DNA of 64,000 nucleotides from an uncultured bacterium. Lineage in GTDB: Bacteria > Cyanobacteriota > Vampirovibrionia > Gastranaerophilales > Gastranaerophilaceae. The position numbers and the translations under genes are program-made. Shown here piece by piece: positions 17,780 through 19,974 of the stretch (the first letter of the stretch is position 1; each line of letters begins with the position of its first letter). The stretch lies in assembly GCA_950022695.1 (NCBI GenBank), contig CATLLN010000001.1:450539-514538 (forward strand). The letters run 5' to 3'. The notes beneath the pieces were generated by a model. That model was not told where the DNA came from. It made no database searches and saw nothing but the letters and a program-made list of their open reading frames with translations.

Positions 17780-18469
17780 TTATTTATGAGGAGTTTGCTC
17801 TTCATTAAAATTTAAACCGCCTCCATTTATATATAAAGAAGAACAAGAAATTCCTGTTCCTTTTTTACAGTCATTAATAGGGTTGTCGGTATAGAATCTT
17901 GTAGCAAAACCATTTTGCATTAAAACAAGAAAAAATATATCTTTACCTACTTGATTAGGACCGGAAAGCCCGTTTACATCAACTTGAACCCACCCGCAAC
18001 TGTTTAAATTACCATTTAAATTGTTTACTTTATCCAATTCATCGTAAGTTACACAGTTGTTATAATGATATCTGAATTTTACAGAATAACCTCGCAATGC
18101 CATAAAAGCAGGCCATTTCCCATTAACATTAGTTTTTAATACTTGTTCTGTATTATTCAGATATTTAGATTTTACCTGACATTTATTTGGTATAGCTTCA
18201 TTACATATATGTGAAATTTTTATTTTTTTTACAAACTGATCTCTAAAACATTTATCATCCATGCTTTTGCATAGCAATAAAGGAGATGAATCGTCTTCTT
18301 CAAGAAGTCTGAGTGCTTGGTTTAATTCACTGAAAATCTTTTTATATTGTGATTTATAACTGATTTCTTGTATTTTTGCCATAAGTGTCGGAATAGTCAT
18401 GGCGGCAACAACACCGATTATGCCAAGTGTTGTTAGAACCTCTGCTAAGGTAAATCCTTTATATTTCAT
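17780..18469 (-). CDS. Type IV prepilin-like protein (orphan), divergent to an XRE gene
   Basis: The N terminus MKYKG/FTLAEVLTTLGIIGVVAA is a perfect prepilin signal: Gly before the cut, Phe at +1, Glu at +5, then a hydrophobic helix. The 229-residue protein has paired cysteines in the C-terminal domain (CGWVQVD, CKKGTGISC) and a DVNGLSGPNQVGKDIF segment typical of such pseudopilins. The ATG has a TTGGAG ribosome site. It is divergent from an XRE regulator over a palindrome-rich spacer and convergent with queF (2-bp gap). Confidence 0.9.
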   Translation of the reverse strand: MKYKGFTLAEVLTTLGIIGVVAAMTIPTLMAKIQEISYKSQYKKIFSELNQALRLLEEDDSSPLLLCKSMDDKCFRDQFVKKIKISHICNEAIPNKCQVKSKYLNNTEQVLKTNVNGKWPAFMALRGYSVKFRYHYNNCVTYDELDKVNNLNGNLNSCGWVQVDVNGLSGPNQVGKDIFFLVLMQNGFATRFYTDNPINDCKKGTGISCSSLYINGGGLNFNEEQTPHK

Positions 18470-19142: not shown

Positions 19143-19183
19143 TATAATCTGTTACAAGTTAAGTGTAAATAAGGAGAAAAATC

Positions 19184-19974
19184 ATGAAAAACAGAACAGA
19201 ATTAGAAAAACGGGGGGGGGTAACCTTAAAAGCCTTAATTTAGGTGCGTTTCAGTTATCTCCTTTCAAGCGTAACGTCATCCTGAATGACAGTAAGCGAA
19301 ATGCACTAATCAAATTATCTGCATTTACTTTAGCTGAAGTTTTAATTACCCTTGGTATCATTGGTGTAGTTGCGGCAATGACTATTCCAAATTTGATGCA
19401 AAAATGCTTTGAAATCCAAACAGTTACACGATTTAAGGAAGTTACTTCAATATTATCTCAGGCAATGAGACTTGCTGTCGAGGATAATGGTGAAGTTTCA
19501 AGCTGGGGTAATGTTACTAATACTGAAGCTGGCGCTTTAGCTATTGCAAAGAATTTGAAACCTTATCTAAAACTGGCACATGATTGTGGTGCATTAGACC
19601 CAAAGGGAATATGCATTTATCCAAATACTTATTATTTAAAAAATGGAAATAAGCATGTAGGTTACGCTGCAAGCAAAAATTATTATAAAATTATTTTAAT
19701 GAATGGTTCATCAGTTTGGTGGAGAGGAAAGTTAGATAGCGACACTGCTAAAAATGGCGAGGTTCCAATAATGGCATTTTTCTTTGATATTAATGGCAAA
19801 AAACTTCCAAATATTATTGGTCAGGATGTATTTCAGTTTTTCTATTATGAAAACTATGGTTTGATACCAAATGGCTGGAATAAGCAGGATGAATGTCTAA
19901 AACCCTCAAGCAGCGGTTTTTCTTGTACATATTATTTGTTTAAAAATGGCAAATTGGATTATATGAAAAAATAA
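19184..19974 (+). CDS. Type IV prepilin-like protein, out of frame at a nine-G run (phase-variable or broken)
   Basis: The ATG at 19184 has an AAGGAG ribosome site, but its frame stops after 19 codons (TAG at 19241-19243), past a run of nine G (19212-19220). The prepilin helix FTLAEVLITLGIIGVV lies in the frame one base away, which is open from the G run to 19974 and has no ATG, GTG or TTG before the helix. Ten G would fuse the two into one prepilin with an unusually long 47-residue leader and Ala before the cut. The rest is a typical C-terminal pseudopilin domain. Either slipped-strand switching or a sequencing error in the homopolymer could explain this. Confidence 0.7.

Follow-up and report, generated by a model that had tools for sequence, protein, structure and literature searches.

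The window analysed here, a 64,000-nucleotide stretch from the 1.95-Mb, 37-contig genome of an uncultured member of the Melainabacteria (G000), contains a type IV prepilin-like gene on the forward strand that is divided between two reading frames. A Shine–Dalgarno-like AAGGAG (19171–19176) lies 7 nt 5′ of an ATG (19184–19186), a spacing comparable to that in the remaining G-run prepilins, and the distance from this ATG to a run of nine G (19212–19220, preceded by C), the proposed slippage switch, is 28 nt. In the consensus, putatively off, state the ATG opens a reading frame of only 19 amino acids, MKNRTELEKRGGVTLKALI (19184–19243), which ends at a TAG (19241–19243). The prepilin frame lies one base away from that of the ATG and is open from the run through a TAA at 19972–19974; it consists of a 34-codon leader free of stop and start codons (19222–19323) and a mature pilin-like protein of 216 amino acids, FTLAEVLITLGIIGVVAAMT... 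(19324–19971), recognized by its N_methyl motif. The prepilin frame holds no ATG, GTG or TTG from the run up to the FTLAEV motif. One additional G would give a leader of 47 residues that ends in KLSA, directly before FTLAEV. The first-pass annotation had described exactly this arrangement: a well-preceded start that reads through nine G into a stop, a startless prepilin frame one base away that stays open to its end (19974), and one continuous protein with a 47-residue leader if a tenth G is supplied. It had also noted the contrast with 5-residue leaders in sister prepilins, which we see in the neighbouring gene on the reverse strand (17780–18469), a profile-matched prepilin with the ordinary leader MKYKG and no G run. 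Short palindromic repeat-like segments, translated as VILNLIQNLK and similar, are present as inserts in the leaders of the window gene (at about 19270–19292) and of three other loci (L070, L085 and L215), and leave the frame unbroken. A search of genome contigs with the window gene gave a single match, its orthologue in genome G001, on a contig that ends in the 5′ cassette at the run; the gene had no match among viral contigs.

The identification of the window gene as a prepilin is based on its N-terminal methylation motif, the hydrophobic helix that follows and a Glu at mature position 5. Against PF07963 it scores 21.5 bits in the genome search (cut-off of 21.2) and 18.3 bits when the single protein (P0001) is scanned. 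Residues F1, T2, L3 and E5 of the mature protein are invariant across 56 relatives. The residue preceding the cleavage site is Ala instead of Gly, and across the family this position is occupied by Ala in 66 cases and Gly in 53; Ala is tolerated here in some prepilins, and Gly is a weak criterion. The AlphaFold2 model of the mature protein (pLDDT of 93.5) has a long N-terminal helix (residues 3–55) followed by a beta-rich domain, for which PAK pilin and FimA are the top structural matches, although weak ones (Z of 4.9; Foldseek E of about 1); fold searches of the pilin head returned nothing beyond such weak pilin matches. Sequence-profile matches to geopilin and PilA run through the N-terminal helix. 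The genome encodes about 70 N_methyl proteins by profile search, together with one prepilin peptidase gene (A24_N_bact match) and one PilC/GspF-type gene (two-domain T2SSF).

The first-pass annotation described the split for this gene alone and overlooked a family: the window gene is one of about eighteen pilus-subunit genes in this genome that are split by a run of nine G. The genome has 22 runs of at least nine G, compared with about 0.5 expected from its dinucleotide content, and every one of them is exactly nine long; on contig C1 (360 kb), G/C runs of length 5 (n = 40), 6 (n = 6) and 9 (n = 4) occur, and none of length 7 or 8. The run occupies the same site in prepilin genes in 19 of the 22 cases, within a shared layout of Shine–Dalgarno sequence, ATG, 27–28 nt, C, nine G, usually TAAC, a leader of about 8–50 codons and FTLAEVLITLGIIGVVAA or similar. 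The distance of 28 nt between ATG and run recurs in 17 of the 18 start-bearing loci, and all 18 are out of frame by the identical step; this includes L030, for which the Shine–Dalgarno-preceded ATG at 28 nt was used and gives the off state as at the other loci. A start-bearing prepilin with a run of seven G (C5:65481) is out of frame as well. The run-less prepilins inspected in the same genome have, with few exceptions, an in-frame start with a Shine–Dalgarno sequence and a short leader, so the absence of an in-frame start accompanies the run. Two remnant cassettes, L023 (C4:30535) and L029 (C5:128300), have no usable start, yet both retain exactly nine G and TAAC, which indicates that the run persists for a while after the gene is lost; in L029, where the start is gone, the leader contains three stops. 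Two of the nine-G runs lie outside prepilin genes (L017, C1:594771; L021, C2:478705) and read as C9 on the coding strand (...TPPR...) with frames open to either side, and may mark additional switchable genes.

Comparison with five other species of the genus brings the total to about 119 homologous prepilin loci in six species, 113 of them start-bearing. Many such loci occur in G001 (a MAG named ‘uncultured Candidatus Melainabacteria bacterium’), G007, G009, G014 and G023, and several in G357. Run lengths called in the assemblies range from 7 to 12, and the usual length is 9 in G000 and G001, 8 in G023, 11 in G007, 9–10 in G009 and 9 in G014. Across the six species only 6 of 113 start-bearing loci are in frame, and the two off frames account for 39 and 68 (P = 5.6 × 10−13 against an expectation of one-third, a value that overestimates the strength of the result because loci within a genome are related and not independent). 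When each combination of lead, run and frame is counted once per genome, a conservative count, 4 of 34 are in frame (P = 0.004). G233, G246 and G327, from the same family but different genera, have single G-run sites, which are off in three of three cases. The off frame is a single state in G000, G001 and G023, mainly the opposite state in G007, and both states in G009 and G014; in G023 the distance from ATG to run is one base longer and the run one base shorter, which leaves the frame unchanged. A uniform direction of frame change was therefore not found across the homologues, and a programmed −1 frameshift with one conserved direction was rejected on the same ground. Prepilin expansion as such does not depend on G runs, since the prepilin examined in G008 (L051) starts in the ordinary way. 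Two further observations concern G runs elsewhere. In G021, three loci (L100, L105 and L110) share the start MDNFKPENPHYDCISTLWGGG and have G runs of 12, 11 and 12, one of them open and two soon stopped; these represent a further family of poly-G-gated genes, in a related species. In G006, runs of 22 and 28 G adjoin C runs at L102 and L124, one of them at a contig end, and are probably assembly or sequencing artefacts.

These counts also bear on whether the genes are truly in frame and only appear split through homopolymer errors in sequencing or assembly. The length of a G tract in a reference can indeed be wrong (PMC9187656), and the uniform nine in G000 counts in favour of such an error. 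Loci of the same or similar run length within G009 and within G014, with leads of 30 or 31 nt, would nevertheless need opposite corrections, and G007 would mostly need one base less where G000 needs one more. We therefore reject a simple one-base sequencing error as a general explanation and regard error of this kind as extremely improbable; a fixed ten G misread as nine, which the first-pass annotation had named as the outcome that would overturn its proposal, fails as a general account for the same reason.

Orthologous loci differ in run length between species. Between G000 and G001, L018 has nine G and L097 has eleven (both off); L020 has nine (off) and L210 ten (on), with a match that extends upstream of the start; and L030 has nine (off) and L207 ten (on). 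The run of L009 in G000 is nine and that of L186 in G023 is seven. Judged from these comparisons, run length has changed in evolution, between species, for the family and at loci other than the window gene.

The off genes show the marks of coding sequence under constraint. Leaders are highly variable and contain inserted repeats, yet remain open in the prepilin frame: from run to helix there are 8 stops among 2623 codons, and every one belongs to the two startless loci (3 in L029 and 5 in L224), compared with 210 and 214 stops per about 2504 codons each in the other two frames (about 8.5%). Only 5 of 119 loci have a Shine–Dalgarno-like start between run and helix, and an alternative start inside the leader is thereby ruled out for nearly all loci. 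Mature pilins of orthologous pairs have dN/dS values of 0.10–0.38, evidence of purifying selection despite the off state of the consensus; the value for the window gene and its G001 orthologue is 0.20. The open leaders and these ratios together imply that cells produce these proteins at least some of the time and that selection acts on them; the most likely translation start is the ATG upstream of the run. The first-pass annotation had allowed that nine G might be fixed while the frame downstream decays; such decay is absent.

Expression at times could, in principle, come about with no change in the DNA. The main rival explanation is programmed recoding, in which slippage of RNA polymerase on the G tract, or a ribosomal frameshift, lets out-of-frame DNA yield a small, constant share of full-length protein. 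Bacterial transcription is known to slip on homopolymers (PMC1088944, on A/T runs), and such slippage would account for the conserved out-of-frame state, the uniform nine in G000 and purifying selection without an in-frame gene. The direction of the required shift differs among species and loci, a point tempered by the chance that RNA polymerase may slip either way; the variable leaders after the run leave little room for a conserved stimulator, and certain orthologues are plainly in frame. The orientation of the runs relative to replication is also left unexplained by recoding. With the putative leading strand assigned from GC skew (plus for C1, C4 and C5, minus for C2), the G strand is on the leading strand in 16 of 17 G-run prepilins of G000 compared with 10 of 41 other prepilins (Fisher’s exact test, P = 9 × 10−7; hand count). 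On these four contigs, 31 of the 41 run-less prepilins are on the putative lagging strand, opposite to the G-run genes. Nearly all runs on the larger stretches analysed in G007 and G023 likewise match the local skew. The strand bias links the run to replication, beyond transcription or translation alone, and on balance we consider recoding unlikely.

The 5′ parts of these genes have a history that is separate from that of the pilins they precede. L012 and L016 are 96% identical from ATG to run and 100% identical from run to helix, and their bodies are only 37% identical; at L025 and L026 the 5′ ends are identical and the bodies differ. Shared 5′ ends with divergent bodies indicate that the 5′ part is homogenized or shuffled among genes, and such exchange can explain part of the uniformity in run length; it is also the reason that the conservative count given above matters. 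The exchange of cassette and helix independently of the bodies, as in L012 and L016, is what would be expected of a silent archive, in which most copies are unexpressed and donate pilin bodies by gene conversion, as does Neisseria pilS. Every copy, however, keeps its own Shine–Dalgarno sequence and ATG, together with a coding leader and a frame free of stops, which is meaningful only if translated from that start; startless copies have decayed leaders, and two orthologues are in frame. An archive is accordingly a very unlikely account.

Phase variation through slippage of the poly-G run, as the first-pass annotation had proposed, is the best-supported reading, given the approximately 119 loci, the run lengths and states of orthologues, purifying selection and the open leaders. 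Comparison across species makes it probable, with slippage inferred for the population itself, that the run controls a repertoire of prepilins whose default state is off. Translation would start only at the Shine–Dalgarno-preceded ATG upstream of the run, and prepilin would be made only when run length places that ATG in frame, which at the window gene would take one G more or two G fewer. The probable cause of changes in run length is slipped-strand mispairing as the DNA replicates, which would give rise to rare, heritable and reversible ON cells, independently at each locus. Almost every locus is OFF in the consensus. The repertoire would extend from 18 pilins in G000 to about 60 in G007 (from run counts), and the pilins, if expressed and functional as pili, would be displayed by one pilus or secretion machine common to them all. 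The 5′ cassette of start, run, leader and helix moves between genes of the family separately from the pilin bodies.

Two findings sit less easily with slippage. The runs of G000, all exactly nine, are more uniform than freely slipping tracts, which may reflect cassette exchange or a mutational preference for nine. MutS1, which lowers slippage rates in general, is intact; it is so in run-rich and run-poor species alike, and loss of mismatch repair was therefore discarded as an explanation for the long runs. We suggest, more tentatively and with less than even confidence, that the system serves antigenic variation, with 18 to about 60 individually switchable prepilins per genome, normally held out of frame so that at most one or a few would be ON in a cell; the G-run cassette may then act both as a switch and as a shared segment for recombination, and the placement of the run on the leading strand may set the slippage rate.

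Melainabacteria are common but little-cultured gut relatives of cyanobacteria, and we found no report of phase variation in this lineage in the open literature. If the slippage reading is correct, a commensal lineage varies its surface through contingency loci to an extent that matches or exceeds that of classic pathogens, and maintains a large, mostly switched-off wardrobe of surface proteins. A practical warning is that gene callers miss or truncate prepilins of this kind.

A homopolymer sited close to the 5′ end of the ORF, where a change in its length alters the reading frame, is a feature of contingency genes and is present in the window gene. The opa genes of Neisseria gonorrhoeae carry a repeat of the CTCTT type. 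They resemble the present family in being dispersed paralogues for surface proteins (about 11), each of which varies in phase on its own by means of a repeat located 5′ in the coding sequence (PMC3745409); they differ in encoding outer-membrane barrels, whereas here the repeat is mononucleotide G, the products are pilins, copies are more numerous and nearly all are off. Campylobacter (PhasomeIt, PMC6321876; PMC8355987) and Helicobacter canadensis (PMC2823697) also have many intragenic G/C tracts that set the reading frame, but these are spread over many gene families, and here the run is at one fixed site in one protein family. The sortase pili of Bifidobacterium breve, likewise a gut commensal, share the arrangement of a short start-bearing upstream ORF, an intragenic G tract and a startless downstream pilin ORF; with tracts of G10–G12 the loci are annotated as two out-of-frame ORFs, and pili are made only when tract length joins them (Penno et al. 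2022, PMC9187656). Deep sequencing established switching by replication slippage in that species, with G11 slipping more than G10. B. breve has two LPXTG sortase pilus loci per genome and this direct proof; the present system has 18 to about 60 type IV prepilin loci per genome, which have a 5′ cassette in common, and is known by comparison. The mechanism is a known one. What is new relative to these systems is the gene family concerned and its lineage, how many loci there are, that they are almost all off, that they share a 5′ cassette and that they show a strand bias.
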